The notes under the pieces: model-generated
The model's input: the letters and a program-made list of their open reading frames with translations, nothing else
What the model was told of the DNA's origin: nothing
Databases searched by the model: none
Assembly: GCA_017466325.1 (NCBI GenBank)
Contig: JAFTUK010000052.1
Coordinates: 1 to 35,358, forward strand
DNA length: 35,358 nt
Reading direction: 5' to 3'
From: Bacteroidaceae bacterium
GTDB lineage: Bacteria > Bacteroidota > Bacteroidia > Bacteroidales > Bacteroidaceae
Program-made: the position numbers and the translations under genes
In this document: positions 4,458-30,847 of the stretch, piece by piece
Layout of the letters: every line of letters starts with the position of its first letter
Position numbering within the stretch: position 1 is the stretch's first letter

Positions 4458-6053
4458 ATGATCAGAAAATTTGATTTTCTCGTTATCGGAGGCGGTGTGG
4501 CAGGCATGAGCTACGCACTGAAGGTGAGCCAGAGCGGTAAGGGCAAGGTGGCCCTTGTGTGTAAGACATCATTGGGAGAGTCCAACACCTCCAAGGCACA
4601 GGGTGGAATAGCCTCGGTGACAAACCTGGAACTGGACAACTTTGAAAAGCATATCCAGGATACCATGATTGCAGGCGACTACATATCAGATCCTGCCGCC
4701 GTGGAACAGGTGGTAAAAGGCGGACCTGCAGGAATAGCCGACCTGGTGAAGTGGGGAGTAAACTTCGACAAGAAGGAGGATGGAGAGTTTGACCTGCACA
4801 GAGAGGGCGGACACTCCGAGTTTCGAATCCTGCACCATGCCGATGACACTGGCTTTGAAATACAGCGCGGTCTTATGGAGGCCGTAAAGAGCAACCCCGA
4901 CATAACGGTACTGGAAAACCATTTTGCCGTGGAAATAATCACCCAGCACCACATGGGTATCCGTGTCACAAGACGTACTCCGGACATAGAGTGCTTCGGT
5001 GCATACGTCCTGAACCCGGAAACAGGCAAGGTGGATACCTATCTGTCAAAGATTACCGTTGTGGCAACTGGAGGTACGGGTGCCGTCTATTCTTCCACCA
5101 CCAATCCGGACATTGCCACGGGCGACGGCATAGCCATGGTGTACCGTGCCAAGGGCAAGGTGCAGGACATGGAGTTCGTACAGTTCCACCCCACGGCACT
5201 ATACAATCCAAAGGAAAAGCATCCGGCATACCTCATTACCGAAGCCATGCGAGGATATGGCGGCATATTGCGCCTACCCAACGGCAAGGAGTTCATGCAG
5301 AAGTATGACGAGCGCCTGAGCCTGGCTCCACGCGACATAGTGGCACGTGCCATAGACAACGAGATGAAGATTCACGGTCTTGACCACGTATGCCTGGATG
5401 TAACGCACAAGGATCCTGAGGAAACAAAGAAGCACTTCCCGAACATATATGCCAAGTGCCTGTCCATAGGCATAGACATAACAAAGGACTATATACCTGT
5501 TTCCCCCTGTGCACACTATATGTGCGGAGGTATAAAGGTGGATCTTGACGGACAAAGCAGTATCAGGCGACTCTATGCCCTGGGAGAATGTTCTTGCACT
5601 GGGTTGCATGGCGGCAACCGTCTGGCAAGCAACTCCCTGATAGAAGCCGTGGTGTATGCCGATGCCGCCGCACGCCATTCCTTAGAGGTGGTGGACAACT
5701 ACACCTTCAATGAGAAAGTTGCGGAATGGGACGACGAGGGCACGCTGACCAACGAGGAAAAGGTGCTTATAGCACAGGACATGAAGGAGGTGAACCAGAT
5801 TATGTCCACTTACGTGGGTATAGTGAGAAGCGACCTCAGACTTCACCGTGCATGGGAACGTCTTGACCTTCTGTTTGAGGAAACGGAACATCTTTTCAAG
5901 AGAGTGAAACCCACCAAGGATATCTGCGAACTGAGAAACATGATAAACGTGGGTTACCTTATCACACGTCACGCACTGGAAAGGAAAGAAAGCCGAGGAC
6001 TGCACTACACCATTGACTATCCGAAGCACGCTTATGATAAAACGGAAAAGTGA
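4458..6053 (+). CDS. nadB: L-aspartate oxidase
   Basis: This 531-residue flavoprotein oxidises L-aspartate to iminoaspartate, the first step of de novo NAD synthesis. The FAD dinucleotide motif (VIGGGVAGMSYAL) is at residues 8-20. Other features are the succinate-dehydrogenase-like flavin region (SNTSKAQGGIASV), the HREGGHS loop, VVATGGTGAVYSSTTNP, the QFHPTALYN strand and the PRDIVARAI active-site segment. A C-terminal helical domain follows (about 430-531). Length is normal for NadB (about 530). It is the first plus-strand gene after the divergent promoter region. The partner nadA is about 4 kb downstream rather than adjacent, and nadC is not in the window. Confidence 0.96.
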   Translation: MIRKFDFLVIGGGVAGMSYALKVSQSGKGKVALVCKTSLGESNTSKAQGGIASVTNLELDNFEKHIQDTMIAGDYISDPAAVEQVVKGGPAGIADLVKWGVNFDKKEDGEFDLHREGGHSEFRILHHADDTGFEIQRGLMEAVKSNPDITVLENHFAVEIITQHHMGIRVTRRTPDIECFGAYVLNPETGKVDTYLSKITVVATGGTGAVYSSTTNPDIATGDGIAMVYRAKGKVQDMEFVQFHPTALYNPKEKHPAYLITEAMRGYGGILRLPNGKEFMQKYDERLSLAPRDIVARAIDNEMKIHGLDHVCLDVTHKDPEETKKHFPNIYAKCLSIGIDITKDYIPVSPCAHYMCGGIKVDLDGQSSIRRLYALGECSCTGLHGGNRLASNSLIEAVVYADAAARHSLEVVDNYTFNEKVAEWDDEGTLTNEEKVLIAQDMKEVNQIMSTYVGIVRSDLRLHRAWERLDLLFEETEHLFKRVKPTKDICELRNMINVGYLITRHALERKESRGLHYTIDYPKHAYDKTEK

Positions 6054-6077
6054 AATAGGAAAACGGAAAACTAACAT

Positions 6078-6121
6078 ACCCCCTCCGGAGCGTTGCTCCT
6101 CGTCCCCCTATTTAGGGGGAC
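6078..6121. repeat. Dispersed palindromic repeat between nadB and trkH
   Basis: A C-rich stretch ends in a perfect hairpin, GTCCCCCTA-TT-TAGGGGGAC (6102-6121), and is flanked on both sides by copies of GGAAAACGGAAAA. It could end nadB transcription, although there is no T tract. It resembles the repeated intergenic elements of Bacteroidales genomes. Confidence 0.5.
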
Positions 6122-6151
6122 AAAGAAAACGGAAAACGGAAAAAACACTGA

Positions 6152-7639
6152 ATGAAGAAAAGCATATTCGGCACATTGCTCCAACTGGAATCAGTATTCC
6201 TGTTGATAACGGGCGCCGTCAGTTTATTCTATAAAGAGGAAGACTGGTGGGTGTTCATGTCGTGTGCAGCTATAAGTTTTCTCATAGGTGCAGTGAACAT
6301 AAGTATAAGAAAGTGCCAAAGCAGAAACAATAATGAACATTGCCACAAGTACTTCTCGCGCGCCGACAGTTTTATGGTGGTGACAATGACATGGGTACTC
6401 TTCTCCCTGATAGGAATGATACCGTTCATCTATCTAAATGGAATGGATATAACAGATGCATTCTTCGAGACAATGTCAGGCTTCACAACTACGGGTGCAA
6501 CGGTAATCTCTGATATTGACAGTATGTCGAACGGACTTAAGTTCTGGCGATGCATAACGCAATGGATGGGAGGACTGGGAATAGTGGTATTTACCTTTGC
6601 ACTGATGCCTACCGGAGAGATGCGAAACAACAACATATTCTCGGCAGAAACAACAGGTATAAGTCTGGACAAACTTAGTCCTAAAATAAGTTCTACGGCC
6701 AGAAGGCTGATGATAATATACCTGATACTTACAGTATGCTGTGCCGCACTTTATTATGCAGGACCAATGAGTGCATTTGATGCCGTATGCCACTCCTTTA
6801 CTACAATATCCACTGGAGGTTTCTCCAATTATACGGCAAGCATGGCACACTTCAATTCCAAGTACATAGAATATGTCTGTTCCGTATTCATGCTTCTGTC
6901 AAGCATTAACTTCGGACTTTATTATTATGCTGCAGTGAGAAAGTGGTATATAATACAGAATAATGAGGAAATCAATGTGTTTTTCAAAATAGTATGTATA
7001 TCAATAGTTATATTCATGCTGCTTTTCTATTTTGTTCCTGCAACTATAGAAAACATGGCATCACTGCCTATGGGAATAGAAGAGATATTCCGTACATCAT
7101 TATTCCACGTATCTACCATAATAAGCAGTACTGGTTTTGCAGCATCGAAGTATGACTATGTGGCATGGGGTGATGCCTACCTTATGCCTACACTGTTGAT
7201 GATGACCATAGGCGCATGTGCCGGAAGTACGGCAGGAGGCATGAAAGTGGTAAGATTCATAGTAGGTGCAAAGGCAATACGTAATGAATTTATAAAGCAA
7301 CTTCATCCGAGGGCAATTCTGAGCGTAAACCTTGGAGGACAAATACTAAAGGAAGAAAGAGTAAGAAGAACACTGGGGTTCATTCTAATCTACGTGGTGC
7401 TGGTTATAATCGGAATAACGATAATGACATACTTTGGAATGGATACGATAACCAGTCTTGGAAGTAGTATAACAGCATTGAGCAACATAGGACCTGGTGC
7501 AGGACTCACAGGTCCTGCCAACAACTTCTCGGAAATTCACCCTATTACAAAATGGCTCTTCAGTTTCTACATGCTGGTGGGACGTCTGGAGATATACACC
7601 GTATTGTTCCTGTTTATGCCCAGTTTCTATAAAAAGTAA
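6152..7639 (+). CDS. trkH: TrkH/KtrB-type potassium uptake channel subunit
   Basis: This 495-residue inner-membrane protein has about ten hydrophobic helices. The four pore-loop segments of the SKT superfamily are visible: SGFTTTGATVI, FTTISTGGFSNY, VSTIISSTGFA and ALSNIGPGAGLTGP. Each brings the glycine that forms the K+ filter. The protein should take up K+ and needs a cytoplasmic TrkA/KtrA RCK partner, which is not in this window. A second K+-related gene (Kef-like antiporter at 11173) is nearby but not in the same transcription unit. Confidence 0.93.
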   Translation: MKKSIFGTLLQLESVFLLITGAVSLFYKEEDWWVFMSCAAISFLIGAVNISIRKCQSRNNNEHCHKYFSRADSFMVVTMTWVLFSLIGMIPFIYLNGMDITDAFFETMSGFTTTGATVISDIDSMSNGLKFWRCITQWMGGLGIVVFTFALMPTGEMRNNNIFSAETTGISLDKLSPKISSTARRLMIIYLILTVCCAALYYAGPMSAFDAVCHSFTTISTGGFSNYTASMAHFNSKYIEYVCSVFMLLSSINFGLYYYAAVRKWYIIQNNEEINVFFKIVCISIVIFMLLFYFVPATIENMASLPMGIEEIFRTSLFHVSTIISSTGFAASKYDYVAWGDAYLMPTLLMMTIGACAGSTAGGMKVVRFIVGAKAIRNEFIKQLHPRAILSVNLGGQILKEERVRRTLGFILIYVVLVIIGITIMTYFGMDTITSLGSSITALSNIGPGAGLTGPANNFSEIHPITKWLFSFYMLVGRLEIYTVLFLFMPSFYKK

Positions 7640-7647
7640 ATACATAT

Positions 7648-8436
7648 ATGACATTGATGCACAGATCACCAATATTCGGACCTGTAAAGAGCAGAAGGCT
7701 CGGCATATCGCTTGGCATAAACGTTATGCCGGATGATGGCAAATGGTGTTCGTTTGATTGTGTATATTGCGAATGCGGTTTGAACAAAGACCATCGGCCA
7801 AGCAAACCCTTGCCTACGATTGAAGAGATAGAATACAAACTCAGGGAAAGACTGAAGGCAATGAAGGAGAGTGGAGAAGACCTGAACACTCTCACCTTCT
7901 CCGGAAATGGCGAACCTACCATGCACCCAAAGTTTCCAGAGATAGTGGACAAAGTGCTGCATCTTCGCGATGAATACTTTCCAAAGGCAAAGGTTACAGT
8001 ATTGTCCAACAGCACGCAGATACATCGCAAGGAAGTGTTCAGCGCACTGATGAGGGTGGACAATGCACTGATGAAACTGGATACCGTTTCTCCGGAATAC
8101 ATAGAACTGGTTGACCAACCAGCCGGAAAGTATGATGTTGAAAGCATAATAGAACGTCTTGCCGAAATGAATGGGCATGCCGTAATACAAACCATGTTCA
8201 TGAAAGGCAATATCAAGGGCAAGGACGGAAACATGGTGTCCGTGGACAACTGCAAGGACGAATACATTGAACCATACATAGAAACACTGAAAAAGATAAA
8301 GCCACGACAGGTGATGATATACACTCTGGACAGAGAGTGGCCAACCGAAGGCCTGGAAAAGGCAAGCCGTGAAACTATGGACGGCATAGCAGAGAAAATA
8401 CGCAAAGCAGGATTTGATACGAGCGTAAGTTACTGA
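7648..8436 (+). CDS. Radical SAM protein
   Basis: This 262-residue protein carries the radical SAM cluster motif C34-x3-C38-x2-C41 (CSFDCVYC), which binds a [4Fe-4S] cluster and S-adenosylmethionine. It also has a conserved TFSGNGEPTMHP strand typical of the wyosine-like/MoaA-related group of small radical SAM enzymes. The substrate cannot be told from the sequence. It starts 9 bp after the trkH stop codon, so the two are probably co-transcribed. Confidence 0.85.
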   Translation: MTLMHRSPIFGPVKSRRLGISLGINVMPDDGKWCSFDCVYCECGLNKDHRPSKPLPTIEEIEYKLRERLKAMKESGEDLNTLTFSGNGEPTMHPKFPEIVDKVLHLRDEYFPKAKVTVLSNSTQIHRKEVFSALMRVDNALMKLDTVSPEYIELVDQPAGKYDVESIIERLAEMNGHAVIQTMFMKGNIKGKDGNMVSVDNCKDEYIEPYIETLKKIKPRQVMIYTLDREWPTEGLEKASRETMDGIAEKIRKAGFDTSVSY

Positions 8437-8473
8437 TATACCTATACAGAAAAAAAGGACAATTTACAAAAGA

Positions 8474-9142
8474 ATGAGGAAGATACTTGTCATACTGATG
8501 CTTCTTGCAACATTCACCGGCATTTCCTATGCCCAGGATGATGTTGTGCAGAACATCGAGAAATTAAGTCTCGTGCATCAGGACAAAGTAACTACGCAAG
8601 GTGAAGGATATGCACTTAAACTTCAAAGATACCTTATTCTGAAACCTTATATTTTGGATGGTGACACCATGTACCAGTATCTTCTGCCGGAAATGCCGGT
8701 ATATGCTCCTTTGAAGTTCAAGAGCAACAGGCAAAGGAAAAGGTACAACAAACTTGTACACAACGTAAAGACGGTACTTCCCATTGCCCAGGAAGTGAAC
8801 GCACTTATAAAGGAAACCTACGAAACCCTGCAAATGCTTCCTGACAAGAAAAGCAAGGACGAGCACATAAAAGCGGTAGAAAAGGAAATATGGAGAACCT
8901 ATTCTCCAAGGATGAAGAAACTTACCTATTCGCAAGGCAAACTTCTTATAAAACTCGTTGACCGTGAGTGTAACCAGAGTTCATACGAGATAGTAAAGGC
9001 TTTTCTGGGTCCTTTCAGGGCTGGTTTCTATCAGGTATTTGCATGGACATTCAATGCCTCTCTAAAGAAAGAATACGATCCGGAGAACGATGACAAACTG
9101 GTGGAAAGGGTGGTAAGAGAAGTAGAAGCAGGATTACTTTGA
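8474..9142 (+). CDS. DUF4294 exported protein
   Basis: This 222-residue protein has a signal peptide (MRKILVILMLLATFTGISYAQ) and a body that fits the Bacteroidetes-specific DUF4294 family: an early KLQRYLILKP segment, a YxRLVHNVK-like helix (RYNKLVHNVKTVLPIAQ) and the FLGPFRAGFYQVFAWTFN block. No catalytic motif is visible. It is likely periplasmic or membrane-associated. The function is unknown. Confidence 0.8.
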   Translation: MRKILVILMLLATFTGISYAQDDVVQNIEKLSLVHQDKVTTQGEGYALKLQRYLILKPYILDGDTMYQYLLPEMPVYAPLKFKSNRQRKRYNKLVHNVKTVLPIAQEVNALIKETYETLQMLPDKKSKDEHIKAVEKEIWRTYSPRMKKLTYSQGKLLIKLVDRECNQSSYEIVKAFLGPFRAGFYQVFAWTFNASLKKEYDPENDDKLVERVVREVEAGLL

Positions 9143-9150
9143 GTAAGACA

Positions 9151-9240
9151 CACCACCTTACCCCTACGCAAGGGAGGAAGTATATAGTAAACAATTAATG
9201 GTAACCTCTCCCTCCCCTTGCGGGAGGGTTGGGGAGGGGT
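9151..9240. repeat. C-rich/G-rich dispersed inverted repeat
   Basis: The right part forms CCCTCCC (9210-9216) paired with GGGAGGG (9222-9228), followed by a G-rich tail. The left part (around 9161-9178) carries a weaker copy of the same motif. This is an intergenic palindromic repeat between the DUF4294 gene and the methyltransferase gene. No promoter is seen in it. Confidence 0.5.
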
Positions 9241-9259
9241 CCAAACCTAAATAAAAAAG

Positions 9260-9799
9260 ATGAGAAAACTGAAGGTAACGGAAATGAACCGCATAACTCC
9301 GCAAGAGTTTCAAGTGGCTGACAAGAACCCCTTGGTGGTGGTATTGGATCATGTCCGCAGCCTATACAATGTTGGTAGTGTCTTCCGTACGGCAGATGCC
9401 ATGAGACTTGCAGGAATATGCCTTTGCGGAATTACCGCCACACCGCCTAATGTAGAGATACACAAGACAGCCCTTGGTGCAGAAGACACCGTGGAATGGA
9501 AATACTTCAAGCAAACCGAGGATGCCGTTGAATGGCTTCGCCAGGAAGGATACACCATCATGGCGGTGGAACAATGCGAAGGCAGCACCATGCTACAAGA
9601 CTTCCATCCAGAACCTGAAAAGAAGTATGCCATCATCATGGGCAACGAGGTGAAGGGTGTTCAGCAGCACATAGTGGACATGGCCGACGGATGCCTGGAA
9701 ATACCCCAGTTCGGAACCAAACACAGCATGAATGTTTCCGTCACGGCAGGCATGATAATATGGGATTTCATGCAGAAAAGTTATCTACATTCGTGTTGA
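9260..9799 (+). CDS. TrmH/SpoU-family RNA 2'-O-methyltransferase
   Basis: This 179-residue SPOUT methyltransferase shows the three SpoU motifs: NVGSVFRTADA (motif 1), IIMGNEVKGV (motif 2) and the knot-forming IPQFGTKHSMNVSVTAG (motif 3). It should methylate a ribose in tRNA or rRNA using SAM and act as a dimer with a trefoil knot. It is short, a catalytic SPOUT domain alone with no N-terminal RNA-binding domain. TrmL and TrmH are both possible. The stop codon overlaps one DnaA-box-like 9-mer of the downstream cluster. Confidence 0.9.
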   Translation: MRKLKVTEMNRITPQEFQVADKNPLVVVLDHVRSLYNVGSVFRTADAMRLAGICLCGITATPPNVEIHKTALGAEDTVEWKYFKQTEDAVEWLRQEGYTIMAVEQCEGSTMLQDFHPEPEKKYAIIMGNEVKGVQQHIVDMADGCLEIPQFGTKHSMNVSVTAGMIIWDFMQKSYLHSC

Positions 9800-10046
9800 T
9801 AACTATGTTCAAAAACCTTGCATAACACTGATATTCATGATAACAAAAGCGGGGAAGAATAGTTATAAACACAGGCAAAAAGGCTATAAACACGGTTATT
9901 TCAACCCTTATCTACATGGATGTAAAAGCATGCAAAGAACGAAGGATTAGCACATTAAATGATATGGCAACATAAGTTATCTACACTATCAACACCCTAT
10001 CATTATCATCATAGATATAGAAATTAAATAAATAAAGGATAATAAT
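9781..10046. other. Cluster of DnaA-box-like 9-mers plus AT-rich stretch (candidate origin)
   Basis: Seven 9-mers close to TTATNCACA lie in 214 bp: TTATCTACA at 9781, 9908 and 9977; TTATCAACA on the minus strand at 9794-9802; TTATAAACA at 9863; CTATAAACA at 9884; CTATCAACA at 9986. An AT-rich run (about 9995-10046) then leads to the nadA start codon. This is the layout of a bacterial oriC (DnaA boxes beside an unwinding region), but no box is the perfect TTATCCACA. A DnaA-responsive promoter region of nadA is the alternative. Confidence 0.35.
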
Positions 10047-10982
10047 ATGAACATTAAAGAGGAAATACGCAGGATGTGCCGTGAGAAGAATGCGGTGATT
10101 ATGGCACACTACTACACCGACGGTGAGATACAGGATATAGCCGATTTCGTCGGTGACTCACTGGCTTTGGCACAGAAGGCTGCCACCACCGATGCTGATA
10201 TAATAGTAATGTGTGGCGTGCACTTCATGGGCGAGACAAGCAAGATACTTTGTCCCGACAAGAAAGTCCTTGTTCCCGATCTGGAGGCTACCTGCTCCCT
10301 GGCGGAGAGTTGCCCTGCCGACAAGTTTGCAGAGTTCGTGGCAGAGCATCCCGGTCATACCGTTATAAGTTATGTAAACACCACGGCTGCCACCAAGGCC
10401 GTTACCGACATAGTGGTGACCAGCAGCAATGCCCGCCAGATAGTGGAGTCGCTTCCTCAGGACACTCCCATCATCTTCGGCCCCGACCGCAACCTGGGTG
10501 GATATATAAATAGTATAACGGGCAGGAACATGCTCCTTTGGGACGGTGCATGCCATGTGCATGAGAAATTCTCGGTGGAGAAGATACTGGAACTGAAGAA
10601 GCAGTATCCAGATGCCAAGGTGCTGGTACATCCAGAGTGCAAGGGCACGGTGGTGAAACTTGCCGACAAGGTAGGCAGTACCGCGGCTCTTCTGAAGTAT
10701 AGCATCAATGACCCTGCACAGGTATTCATTGTGGCCACCGAGAGCGGTATCCTTCATGAGATGCAGAAGTCATGCCCCGAAAAGACTTTCATCCCTGCTC
10801 CTCCAAGCGACAGTACATGTTCATGCAACGAGTGCTCATATATGAAACTCGTCACGATGCAGAAACTCTACGATTGTCTCCTGAACGAGGCACCGGAGAT
10901 ACACGTTGATGCCGAGGTGGCAGAGAAGGCCATACGTCCCATCAACCGCATGTTGGAAATATCCGAGAAATTGGGCCTTTAA
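10047..10982 (+). CDS. nadA: Quinolinate synthase
   Basis: This 311-residue enzyme condenses iminoaspartate (made by NadB) with dihydroxyacetone phosphate to quinolinate in NAD synthesis. It has the three-fold pseudo-symmetric NadA layout: HYYTDGEIQDIADFVGDSL, the MCGVHFMGETSKIL segment, and VHPECKG. By position, the [4Fe-4S] ligands should be C83, C169 and C263, the last in ECSYMKL. Length is that of the short bacterial/archaeal NadA type. The upstream region is the unusual 9-mer cluster. Confidence 0.96.
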   Translation: MNIKEEIRRMCREKNAVIMAHYYTDGEIQDIADFVGDSLALAQKAATTDADIIVMCGVHFMGETSKILCPDKKVLVPDLEATCSLAESCPADKFAEFVAEHPGHTVISYVNTTAATKAVTDIVVTSSNARQIVESLPQDTPIIFGPDRNLGGYINSITGRNMLLWDGACHVHEKFSVEKILELKKQYPDAKVLVHPECKGTVVKLADKVGSTAALLKYSINDPAQVFIVATESGILHEMQKSCPEKTFIPAPPSDSTCSCNECSYMKLVTMQKLYDCLLNEAPEIHVDAEVAEKAIRPINRMLEISEKLGL

Positions 10983-24009: not shown

Positions 24010-24030
24010 GTATGCAAAGTTTATGCACAC
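24010..24030. promoter_or_regulatory. Palindromic operator-like site 1 (DnaE-like operon)
   Basis: GTATGCAAA-gtt-TATGCACAC. The left arm is identical to that of the perfect site at 27894; the right arm differs at two positions. It ends 73 bp before the start codon at 24104. Probably bound by the WYL regulator encoded at 25318 (inference). Confidence 0.6.
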
Positions 24031-24103: not shown

Positions 24104-24604
24104 ATGGCTAATAAGAAAGACAAAAATCGAAAGGATGCCCTCAAGAGAAAAAGTGCAATTGAGTCGTTGAAATTTCAAACAAGGTGGGGATTTGAAAAAC
24201 ACTTTGGAACGCCATCATCACTGTATTCTGTGTTTTTAGAAACAGAATTGGATTACATAATAGAGTTAGAACTTCAAGAAGATCTATTATCCATTAAGCG
24301 CTTTATAGACGATATAAAATCAGGATTGTGTGTAGAACCGATACCTGAACTTGGTGATTTCTATCATAGCTTGGTTGCCATTTCATTGGGTATATCTCAA
24401 ATAGCTGACATAAATAAATTTTGTATTCCCACACCCTGGGATGAGTTGCTAAATAAGAAAATACTAAGCATATATTACCCTGATGAAATACGAAATCAAG
24501 TTGTTGAATATGCTAAAGAGAAAAATTACAATACTTCTACCTATCTCGGTCAACCAATTGTGAAATTCAATCAGTTATACATTAAAATAAGCAGAAAGAT
24601 ATGA
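24104..24604 (+). CDS. DnaE palm-like protein lacking the catalytic Asp motif
   Basis: This 166-residue protein would be called hypothetical, but residues 46-160 follow the palm of bacterial DNA polymerase III alpha (family C). ELDYIIELELQEDLLSIKRFIDDIK (46-72) matches the helices before the GPGRGS loop. SLVAISLGISQIADINKF (89-106) matches the SLVAYCLGITDIDPL region. LNKKILSIYYPDEIRNQVVEYAKEKNY (116-142) matches the stretch around the catalytic PDIDIDF and the VIDYVxEKYG helix. The GRGS residues are replaced (PELGDF) and the Asp-x-Asp pair is gone, with SIYYPDE in its place. A lysine-rich N-terminus (3-16) is extra. It cannot be an active polymerase. The next gene overlaps by 4 bp (ATGA) and encodes the fingers-like part. 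The homology call is by eye, moderately sure. Confidence 0.65.
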   Translation: MANKKDKNRKDALKRKSAIESLKFQTRWGFEKHFGTPSSLYSVFLETELDYIIELELQEDLLSIKRFIDDIKSGLCVEPIPELGDFYHSLVAISLGISQIADINKFCIPTPWDELLNKKILSIYYPDEIRNQVVEYAKEKNYNTSTYLGQPIVKFNQLYIKISRKI

Positions 24605-25188
24605 GAAGAATGAAAGAAGCAGATGCAAGGGAACTGTTTGCTTTTGTGGCAGACAGAATCGACATAGAGTCAATACCTCTTGATGATGATGAAACATATG
24701 AGTTGTTATCCAAGGGTAATACAGACAGAGTGTATATGATGGAATCCAATTGGGACAAATATGATTTGCTTCAAATAAAGCCGCAGAATTTTGAAGAGCT
24801 TGTTGCCTGTGTTGCATTCAGTCATAGTCTTCTGCTTAATCCCTATATCTATACATATCTGAAGATGACAGAGGTTCGGCCTCTTACTTACCCTATATAT
24901 GCTAAAATAGAGTATGTTGAATCTGTCCTTAAAGAAACACGTGGGTTATTGGTTTACCAGCATCAGGCAACGTTAATAAACGATTATATCAAGAATATGA
25001 GTGTCGAGGACAAAGAGAGCTATAGGCTTGCCATAAGGATAATAAAGACTGAAATTGAACGTCGGAAACGCACATTGGCAGATTATTCTTTCTTCTATAA
25101 GAGAGCATTGTTATGTTATCGCATAGCATACATCAAAGCTAATTTAACTGAGGTTTTTGAACTTTTTTGGAAGAAAAGATGTAACTAA
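24601..25188 (+). CDS. DnaE fingers-like protein (standalone, degenerate)
   Basis: This 195-residue protein matches the fingers region of DnaE along most of its length. IPLDDDETYELLSKGNT (25-41) corresponds to IPLDDxxTYEL..GxT; VYMMESNWDKY to VFQFESxGM; LQIKPQNFEELVACVAF (57-73) to LKPxxFEDLIAxxAL; VLKETRGLLVYQHQ (109-122) to LxxTYGIxVYQEQ; YKRALLCYRIAYIKANLTEVFE (166-187) to the NKSHSxxYAxxxYQxxYLKAHYPxEF block. Key residues have decayed: RPGP is missing, YQEQVM became YQHQATL and RxAMGKK became RLAIRIIK. The DnaE segment between palm and fingers, which carries the third catalytic Asp, is absent from both genes. Start and stop of the pair overlap, so the two proteins are probably made together and may form one complex. 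The function is unknown; mimicry of DnaE is the natural hypothesis. Confidence 0.75.
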   Translation: MRRMKEADARELFAFVADRIDIESIPLDDDETYELLSKGNTDRVYMMESNWDKYDLLQIKPQNFEELVACVAFSHSLLLNPYIYTYLKMTEVRPLTYPIYAKIEYVESVLKETRGLLVYQHQATLINDYIKNMSVEDKESYRLAIRIIKTEIERRKRTLADYSFFYKRALLCYRIAYIKANLTEVFELFWKKRCN

Positions 25189-25247: not shown

Positions 25248-25268
25248 GTGTGCAAACGTTTTGCATAG
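25248..25268. promoter_or_regulatory. Palindromic operator-like site 2 (WYL operon)
   Basis: GTGTGCAAA-cgt-TTTGCATAG, a two-mismatch relative of the perfect site at 27894. It ends 49 bp before the WYL start codon and 8 bp before a TAnnTTTG-like element, where a bound protein would block transcription. Confidence 0.6.
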
Positions 25269-27893: not shown

Positions 27894-27914
27894 GTATGCA
27901 AAGTTTTTGCATAC
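27894..27914. promoter_or_regulatory. Palindromic operator-like site 3 (mini-sigma operon), perfect copy
   Basis: GTATGCAAA-gtt-TTTGCATAC is a perfect 9-bp inverted repeat with a 3-bp spacer, 4 bp after the second nuclease-like gene and 77 bp before the mini-sigma start codon. It could also act as a weak hairpin after the nuclease operon, but the two variants at 24010 and 25248 are upstream of promoters, which favours an operator. Confidence 0.65.
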
Positions 27915-27991: not shown

Positions 27992-28357
27992 ATGGAAAAG
28001 AAAGTAATGATTACCAGAATTAATGGAGTAAAAGAACAAGAAGTAGATACAGAGGCTCGCTATTATCTTTAAGAGGAATTACAGATAATAAAGTCTATTC
28101 AGCAAGGAGGAAAAGAAAGAGACACTGCTATTGAAAGACTTACGCAATCCAGGACAAGATTTGTTGCTGCTGTAGCCAAGAGGTATGCAAACAACAACTT
28201 GTCTATGGATGAACTCATAAAGGCAGGTAACAAAGGCTTGGTGCAAGCAGCTGAGAAATTTGACGAAAATAGAGGTTTCAAATTCATCTGCTATGCTATT
28301 TGGTGGATAAGACAGAGTATAGAAAACGAAATTAGTAATTCAAATAATCTGCAATGA
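27992..28357 (+). pseudogene. Mini sigma-70 (RpoD region 1.2-2.4) with an in-frame TAA
   Basis: The frame codes 121 codons interrupted once by TAA at 28070-28072, after 26 codons. Translation on both sides is in one frame: EARYYL, stop, EELQIIKSIQQGG, then RTRFVAAVAKRYANN, LSMDELIKAGNKGLVQAAEKFDENRGFKF and YAIWWIRQSI. This matches RpoD from the end of region 1.2 through 2.4 (core-binding 2.2 and -10-binding 2.3/2.4), close to Bacteroidetes RpoD. Regions 3 and 4 are absent: it stops naturally at TGA 28355-28357, overlapping the next start (ATGA). Only one stop and no frameshift are present, so it is either freshly broken, read through, restarted internally (in-frame ATG at 28205) or a sequencing error. 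Intact, it could bind RNA polymerase core without recognising a full promoter. Confidence 0.75.
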
Positions 28358-30178: not shown

Positions 30179-30847
30179 ATGGAGTATAACACGAAGGGCA
30201 CGGTGCTGAAGAAGGCTGTTGTGTGGAAGAATCTGTTCTTCTATCGCAAGAGCTATGCCATCTTTCAGTTGACGGTGGAATTCTGCAGGCGTTTCCTGCC
30301 TCCCCATGGCGACCGCACTGTGGACCAGATGGTGCAGGCGGCACGGTCGGGAAAGCAGAACATCATAGAGGGTAGCGAGGACGGCATGACCAGTTCGGAG
30401 ATGGAGATAAAACTGCTGAACGTGGCACGTGGAAGTCTGCAGGAACTTAGAGAGGATTATGTGGATTTCCTTAACACGCGCCATTTGTGCCTCTGGTCGT
30501 CCACGGAGCCAAGACAGGAGCGTCTGAAGGACTTCTGCCACTCGCACAACGACTTCGAGGACTATGCTCCCTTAGTGGAAAGAATGAATGCAGAGGAGTT
30601 TGCCAACCTGTTGCTTACCCTGTGCCACCAGACGGACAAGATGATGTGTGCCTATGTGGAGAAACTTGAACAACGCTTCGTCACCGAAGGCGGAATAAAA
30701 GAGCGGATGTATGCCGCCCGTACCGGTTACCGCAAGTCGCAGGACGAGTACATCAAGCGCCTGGAGGAAGAGAACCGTTTTCTTCGTGCAGAGAACGAAA
30801 GGCTGACAAGAATGATAGAGGAAATAGGAGGTGCTAGGAAATCCTAG
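30179..30847 (+). CDS. Four-helix-bundle protein with C-terminal suffix domain
   Basis: This 222-residue protein has an N-terminal half (about 15-125: WKNLFFYRKSYAIFQLTVEFC, DQMVQAARSGKQNIIEGSEDG, GSLQELREDYVDFL) typical of the four-helix-bundle family (23S rRNA intervening-sequence/S23 type, also related to the Avd accessory protein of diversity-generating retroelements). The C-terminal half matches the suffix-domain variant and ends in a coiled coil (about 190-216, RLEEENRFLRAENERLTRMIEEI). The family binds nucleic acid as a pentamer in Avd; the role of this subtype is not known to me. The last codons (GARKS, stop) are themselves made from the flanking CCTAGG repeat, with the TAG stop inside CCTAGG. 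No reverse transcriptase is nearby, so it is not a visible retroelement. Confidence 0.85.
   Translation: MEYNTKGTVLKKAVVWKNLFFYRKSYAIFQLTVEFCRRFLPPHGDRTVDQMVQAARSGKQNIIEGSEDGMTSSEMEIKLLNVARGSLQELREDYVDFLNTRHLCLWSSTEPRQERLKDFCHSHNDFEDYAPLVERMNAEEFANLLLTLCHQTDKMMCAYVEKLEQRFVTEGGIKERMYAARTGYRKSQDEYIKRLEEENRFLRAENERLTRMIEEIGGARKS

Follow-up and report, generated by a model that had tools for sequence, protein, structure and literature searches.

Why would a bacterium keep two short, inactive pieces of its own replicative DNA polymerase as genes in their own right? The question is raised by a 35,358-nucleotide (nt) stretch of a Bacteroidaceae bacterium (assembly GCA_017466325.1, contig JAFTUK010000052.1; hereafter the window), in which a preliminary description had read two overlapping small genes as a split, catalytically dead DnaE made up of palm and fingers. 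Both open reading frames (ORFs) were present at positions 24104–25188 of the forward strand, encoding 166 and 195 amino acids (aa) and overlapping by 4 nt. It is nearly certain, judging from homology, that they are dead DnaE pieces, the first a palm and the second fingers.

For the 195-aa protein, Pfam assigned residues 18–151 to DNA_pol3_finger (PF17657; 3.8e-19, above the cut-off), all ten NCBIfam matches were to DnaE or error-prone polymerase families, and DnaE chains were the top nine of 15 matches in the PDB (best 7.1e-12). With the genome's own DnaE as query, the fingers of the window corresponded to residues 661–786 and the fingers genes in general matched within residues 661–791. The preliminary description had singled out a lack of DnaE profile matches as the outcome that would speak against fingers, and this did not occur. 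The 166-aa protein was nearly silent as a single sequence: Pfam gave no match, NCBIfam gave only DnaE at 0.021, and no DnaE was among its PDB matches. It was retrieved neither by the genome's own DnaE as a single query nor by a Pfam DnaE-family search of the same genome, which returned the real DnaE only. The palm assignment therefore needed relatives.

A search of 41 genomes (own included) gave one further palm gene. Among 399 genomes of the family, the gene was found in 33 (own included; E ≤0.001), or about 8%, from 11 of 30 genera; two of the 34 places contained a stop and one was a 46-residue piece. Scanning named genomes yielded 47 palm loci from Prevotellaceae, Bacteroidaceae, Muribaculaceae and other Bacteroidales or Bacteroidia (according to record titles), including Prevotella corporis DSM 18810, Caecibacteroides pullorum AN421 and Candidatus Gallipaludibacter, which we take to belong to the Bacteroidales. 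From 82 loci, 63 non-redundant palm loci were retained, the window included; 17 of the 19 left out shared the last 100 palm residues with another locus, and two had no palm ORF. Locus (Lnnn) and genome (Gnnn) labels are those of this analysis.

A 23-row profile of the palm family (alignment rows were of our own selection) matched DnaE in the PDB at 1.5e-5, with the alignment on the palm. DnaE made up nine of its 14 matches (seven at ≤0.001, two at 0.18), and the remaining five lay at 0.09–0.65. The profile also matched residues 368–492 of the genome's own DnaE (43 bits), which as a single query retrieved 24 of the 63 palms, within its residues 335–499 (best 2.7e-13). HHalign matched 29 palm relatives to the palms of ten host DnaEs at 98.3% (2e-14), and the controls with DnaE fingers and with an unrelated family gave 0.4% and 0.2%, so that the palm identity proposed for the 166-aa protein was upheld. 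A plasmid search with the palm relative of L069 returned 901 records; among the 20 listed, 16 carried an annotation, in every case dnaE or error-prone polymerase, which supports the palm homology.

Three Asp residues are catalytic in family C polymerases. In the joint alignment, both members of the Asp pair of the PDID motif were kept in ten of ten host DnaEs, whereas none of the 29 palm relatives kept either. The window pair lacked both palm Asp residues, GRGS, the segment with the third Asp (before which the 166-aa protein stops), RPGP, YQEQ (read as YQHQ) and AMGKK, which agrees with every loss listed in the preliminary description. The PHP domain and the C-terminal parts of DnaE were found in neither protein, Pfam finding fingers only. 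Single positions of the G-R-G-S loop were retained in many palm rows, and the invariant palm residues included ones peculiar to the palm family (LG-P--K), unlike the motifs that DnaE has in the corresponding position. The alignments show palm and fingers to be homologs of the host's replicative DnaE whose active site has been lost.

The ratio of nonsynonymous to synonymous substitution (dN/dS, Nei–Gojobori; 23 pairs selected by us, two of them saturated) was 0.028–0.426 in 13 palm pairs and 0.129 for the fingers (window vs. L099). It was 0.154 for the WYL regulator gene of the locus, and 0.19–0.36 for GyrA-, FtsZ-, DnaB- and sigma-like genes of related loci where dS was computable. These codon comparisons show that palm and fingers have been maintained by purifying selection. 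The view of a conserved but catalytically dead palm and fingers was thus borne out, and the pseudogene that had been expected if the pair were open nowhere else was not found, open relatives under purifying selection occurring elsewhere. The split DnaE stood only in part. The pair recurred, with a separate fingers gene after the palm in six of the 63 loci (window, L040, L048, L050, L099 and L101, the last with a copy of 81 aa only) and the 4-nt overlap preserved in the window, L040, L099 and L101; it is not a general unit, since the palm mostly occurred without a fingers gene.

A phage origin of the pair was not supported. Three scans of viral contigs, in which 5, 13 and 9 stretches came up as candidates and were tested, gave no palm or fingers relative, the single-sequence scans among them reaching close relatives only, and phage records held no relative of the palm or of the metallo-beta-lactamase-fold (MBL) protein encoded in the same locus. 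The fingers query matched 105 phage records, all below 60% identity, and the annotated ones among the 20 listed were DNA polymerase genes.

Related loci also carried pieces of other essential host proteins. To the palm loci was joined a set anchored on the MBL gene. Of the 40 MBL genomes without a listed palm, all but G083 were included, and these 39 contributed 40 regions. Over the 103 loci, the mimics comprised 66 palms, 21 other DnaE-like genes, 38 sigma, seven FtsZ, six GyrA and three DnaB. Two different host proteins were represented in 40 loci, three in six, one in 28 and none in 29. The sigma-70 genes were either pieces of 50–208 aa or copies of 286–305 aa; the L059 copy, the sole long one tested, contained regions 1.2, 2, 3 and 4, and the short fragments kept region 2. 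The DnaB piece was a C-terminal domain (DnaB_C 2.1e-67). The GyrA piece was the coiled coil, whose profile matched the PDB at 2.4e-7, with gyrase or topoisomerase IV as the best 36 of 51 listed matches, and, in the genome of the window, a frame of 861 aa regarded as gyrA at 3.4e-9. Its PDB matches included the short GyrA chains 1x75 and 4ely, presumably CcdB complexes.

A host FtsZ profile found seven proteins in seven of the 103 loci, from 4.7e-20 (L047) to 2.2e-5 (L057), with L166, L078, L182 and L180 at 3e-12 to 1.1e-10. The FtsZ C-terminal domain of L078 matched FtsZ in all 35 listed PDB entries (best 0.043); within its own genome it matched, at 1.4e-8, a frame of 414 aa regarded as ftsZ. 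At L166:13669–14967 (+), a 432-aa fusion combined the palm and the fingers of DnaE with an FtsZ-like C-terminal domain. A divergent, near full-length FtsZ-like protein of 324 aa was encoded beside the palm gene at L047:2927–3901 (+). The FtsZ identity that had been given by eye to small proteins of L053, L069 and L051, and to the same protein in L062, was not supported by follow-up searches and was withdrawn, and with it goes any claim that L051 fuses an FtsZ-like piece to a phosphoesterase.

Larger DnaE pieces with palm and fingers measured 280–501, 762 and 791 aa. The 791-aa copy (L095:7143–9518, +; matching DnaE 2–858) lay beside a palm gene and was followed by a 283-aa DnaB-like gene (9499–10350, +); it retained the palm Asp pair by eye and looks like an early stage in the decay of a polymerase copy. 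Its capture from the present host was rejected, its identity being 48% to the DnaE of G441 vs. 40% to that of its own genome. The 762-aa copy was a second one in the L095 genome (L236:9008–11296, −), with a member of these loci's AAA ATPase family nearby. In L100, a palm (4661–5215) was followed about 0.7 kb downstream by a 1535-aa dnaE (5916–10523, +; 58%, the other match 31–41%), which looks like the main DnaE of that genome. A DnaE palm-fingers piece at L148:12055–13560 (−) formed one protein with WG repeats, which Pfam WG_beta_rep matched in five stretches (2.7e-52). The sigma copy at L078:9533–10399 (+) seemed chimeric by eye, its front resembling the sigmas of these loci and its rear an ordinary primary sigma, and looks as if converted by the host gene.

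In the window, the pair opens a compact locus (Table 1). An inverted repeat, TGCAAA-N3-TTTGCA, occurred three times with at most one mismatch vs. 0.13 expected, and none of 100 shuffles reached three. Each site preceded one transcription unit: palm-fingers, WYL-nucleases and sigma-MBL. Our operator claims rest on this narrow pattern; with up to three mismatches, six sites were found vs. 0.91 expected, three of them away from the locus with two or three mismatches. Over the 103 loci, 16 of 64 palm, 12 of 58 WYL and 13 of 39 sigma genes had an operator in the 220 nt ahead of them, compared with six of 684 unlabelled, one of 118 nuclease-labelled and none of 74 MBL genes, a single site between divergent genes being credited to both. 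Because palm, WYL and sigma genes share this operator, palm-fingers, WYL and sigma-MBL are probably members of a single regulon, and the WYL protein may be what binds the sites.

Table 1. Coordinates of the palm and fingers genes and of the other locus features in the window.
Feature	Position	Strand	Basis or remark
Operator copy 1, TGCAAA-N3-TTTGCA, one mismatch	24013..24027		Upstream of palm gene
Inactive DnaE palm mimic, 166 aa	24104..24604	+	ORF, family profile, HHalign, joint alignment
DnaE fingers mimic, 195 aa	24601..25188	+	Pfam, NCBIfam, PDB matches, alignment
Operator copy 2, exact	25251..25265		Upstream of WYL gene
WYL-WCX transcription regulator, 301 aa	25318..26223	+	Pfam WYL 4.9e-12, WCX 1.4e-10
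Restriction-endonuclease-like protein, 270 aa	26230..27042	+	Pfam REase-ARP 2.6e-8, above cut-off
Second putative nuclease, 275 aa	27062..27889	+	HSDR_N 0.02, below cut-off; E-x-K motif by eye
Operator copy 3, exact	27897..27911		Upstream of sigma fragment
Sigma-70 region-2-like fragment gene	27992..28357	+	One in-frame TAA at 28070–28072
Beta-CASP MBL protein, RNase J-like, 418 aa	28354..29610	+	RMMBL 1.9e-4, just above cut-off; TIGR00649 3.9e-15, far below its cut-off

The MBL gene overlapped the sigma fragment gene by 4 nt, and a relative of the latter without the stop was found at L099:3939–4316, in a locus with the same order as the window (palm, fingers, WYL, nuclease-labelled gene, 275-aa gene, sigma, MBL). 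When six of the window's proteins were compared with PADLOC-DB 2.0, the WYL protein alone was matched and no known anti-phage system was found. As candidates for PD-(D/E)XK nucleases, the two proteins encoded after WYL had one profile match above the cut-off (REase-ARP) and one below it (HSDR_N). An empty-site check gave relatives of the window's downstream flank gene in eight of 25 genomes. Downstream, a 222-aa protein (30179–30847, +) weakly matched the family of 23S rRNA intervening-sequence proteins at 3.9e-7, which falls short of the cut-off.

Similar neighbours recurred around the palm, although many of the 63 loci end at contig borders: WYL in 44, MBL in 32 (profile count), sigma-like genes in 29, metallophosphoesterase in 14, other DnaE-like genes in 13 and AAA ATPase in 11. 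At least one nuclease-labelled family was present in 59. This label covers fifteen putative families assigned by us; Pfam backs it for the REase-ARP and PDDEXK_13 types, one family corresponds to DUF6946, six have no Pfam match, one has a sub-threshold HSDR_N match only and the rest yielded nothing where seen in a fusion protein, the label resting on an E-x-K motif seen by eye where Pfam backing is lacking. Palm (33) and MBL (57) genes occurred together in 17 of the 399 family genomes (hand-counted; Fisher 9e-8), in 15 of these on one contig within about 10 kb. In the MBL-anchored set, an essential-protein piece was found in 11 of 40 regions, three being divergent palms not listed in the 399-genome search, and these pieces tracked WYL (eight of 13 regions with it vs. 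three of 27 without; p 0.0017). Many of the remaining 29 look like simpler nuclease-MBL modules. On plasmids, the order WYL-hypothetical-MBL was seen in Butyrivibrio, and WYL and MBL were adjacent and divergent in Prevotella. A plasmid of Prevotella sp. E2-28 (L261, NZ_CP091789.1 168192–183349) grouped WYL and MBL with two DUF262 genes, a metallophosphatase and a gene annotated as 3'-5' exonuclease. AbiEi/AbiEii pairs (PADLOC) lay near L059:658–2446, L149:10774–12413 and L177:6930–8371.

What could such a collection be for? The explanation we favour, to which we give an even chance, is that the palm, the fingers and the other pieces are decoys of host proteins, baiting phage (or toxin) takeover proteins and controlling nuclease effectors. 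It builds on homology, loss of catalysis, selection, a shared operator and co-location, all of which were observed. Such attackers are well known: AsiA acts on sigma-70, lambda P on DnaB, CcdB on GyrA, and lambda Kil and T7 gp0.4 on FtsZ. The pieces all derive from essential machines that phages or toxins attack, which favours baits. Likewise, the wider locus, with its nucleases, operator and other host-protein pieces, makes binding of phage factors more likely. We infer that a protein aimed at DnaE, sigma-70, DnaB, gyrase or FtsZ would also bind the decoy and be sequestered, and that partners released or induced under WYL control would then unleash the restriction-like and MBL nucleases against phage DNA or RNA or, in abortive defence, the cell itself. 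In the window, palm and fingers would bait a factor that targets DnaE. A broader reading, possible but held more tentatively, is that of a modular immune locus of the Bacteroidales, in which degenerate copies of essential machines (DNA polymerase, sigma-70, replicative helicase, gyrase and FtsZ) would serve as interchangeable baits for phage takeover proteins under one WYL-type operator, with exchangeable nucleases.

Several observations weigh against decoys. The palm's own invariant residues suggest, on alignment evidence, a function besides mimicry, and the palm of L089 still has a full GRGS by eye. Four palm loci (L034, L036, L062 and L063) showed no WYL, MBL or nuclease gene, the palm lying less than 1 kb from a contig end in all four. 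The 29 of 103 loci without a recognised mimic, all from the MBL set, imply that the nuclease/MBL core can exist without bait. The mimics as counted include long sigma genes that seem complete and may be functional sigma factors, the DnaE-like tally includes one gene (L100) that is probably the authentic dnaE of its host, and a host GyrA profile retrieved just four of the six GyrA-like proteins. The nearby AbiE and type IV restriction genes were hand-picked from 250 neighbours, among those listed, so that no enrichment is demonstrated.

The strongest competitor, which we nevertheless consider unlikely, is that the pieces are dominant-negative effectors: infection would relieve WYL repression and the fragments would poison their parent machines and, in concert with the nucleases, bring the cell to a halt. 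The parent proteins are indeed assemblies or multi-subunit machines, region 2 is retained in the short sigma fragments, and one operator is common to the genes. Palm and fingers nonetheless lack the DnaE C terminus, where the clamp and tau contacts lie, matches being confined to residues 335–499 and 661–791; without these contacts they fit a poison less well, and complete-looking sigma copies are not obvious poisons. Rather more doubtful is a reused scaffold, in which palm and fingers would by now serve the nuclease complex as subunits that bind DNA or protein, imitating nothing any more. The invariant residues peculiar to the palm and its wide occurrence without fingers would suit such a role, but the sigma-70, DnaB, GyrA and FtsZ pieces at the same loci would be left unexplained. 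That the genes are back-up copies, a reserve of sigma factor and polymerase parts escaping phage inhibitors, is improbable: sigma paralogues of 287–290 aa look complete and the 791-aa DnaE-like copy of L095 still has its Asp pair by eye, but the bulk of the enzyme, catalytic residues included, is missing from palm and fingers. A decaying pseudogene of a second dnaE is scarcely credible, for although the pieces are short, the window's sigma fragment is itself interrupted and two of 34 palm matches contain a stop, frames of similar length are open in 11 genera, each of the 13 palm pairs compared has a dN/dS far under 1 and the fingers overlap is preserved in four loci.

If the pieces are decoys, each would reveal a host protein attacked by phages of gut or rumen Bacteroidales and would be ready bait for fishing out the attackers. 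Bacteria would then keep dummy targets, much as plants do with the integrated decoys of their immune systems, and small "truncated housekeeping genes" dropped by surveys could be immune parts. Even as poisons or scaffolds, a selected, stand-alone, inactive DnaE palm would be a kind of protein for which our literature search (titles and abstract openings of the papers listed) found no description, nor was the locus found described. A 2013 survey of Pol III alpha subunits discarded those leftover fragments whose active site was not intact (PMC3919608), and the available text of a 2026 survey of bacterial polymerases shows no such stand-alone palm protein (PMC12926913).

Compared with known systems, the closest relative of the pair is DnaE1 (Pol III alpha, C-family), with which it shares part of the palm (368–492) and part of the fingers (661–786) in the same order; it differs in lacking the PHP and C-terminal parts and the catalytic Asp residues, and in consisting of two short genes, elsewhere usually the palm only. 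The MBL protein resembles RNase J/beta-CASP nucleases in its fold and RMMBL motif, but it has 418 aa and scores far below the RNase J family cut-offs. The WYL-WCX regulator beside nuclease-like genes recalls BrxR of BREX, as far as the accessible part of its description goes (PMC9122589), but PADLOC found no BREX protein among the six proteins compared and the regulated genes differ. The closest concept, in the portion of the text available, is the guard and decoy logic set out in a review of phage defence (PMC12409349). In PARIS, Panoptes and Ronin, as presented there, the intended target of a phage factor sets off an effector, as is proposed here; those systems sense anti-restriction proteins or signal-molecule sponges, whereas the Bacteroidales loci would have collected degenerate copies of essential proteins.
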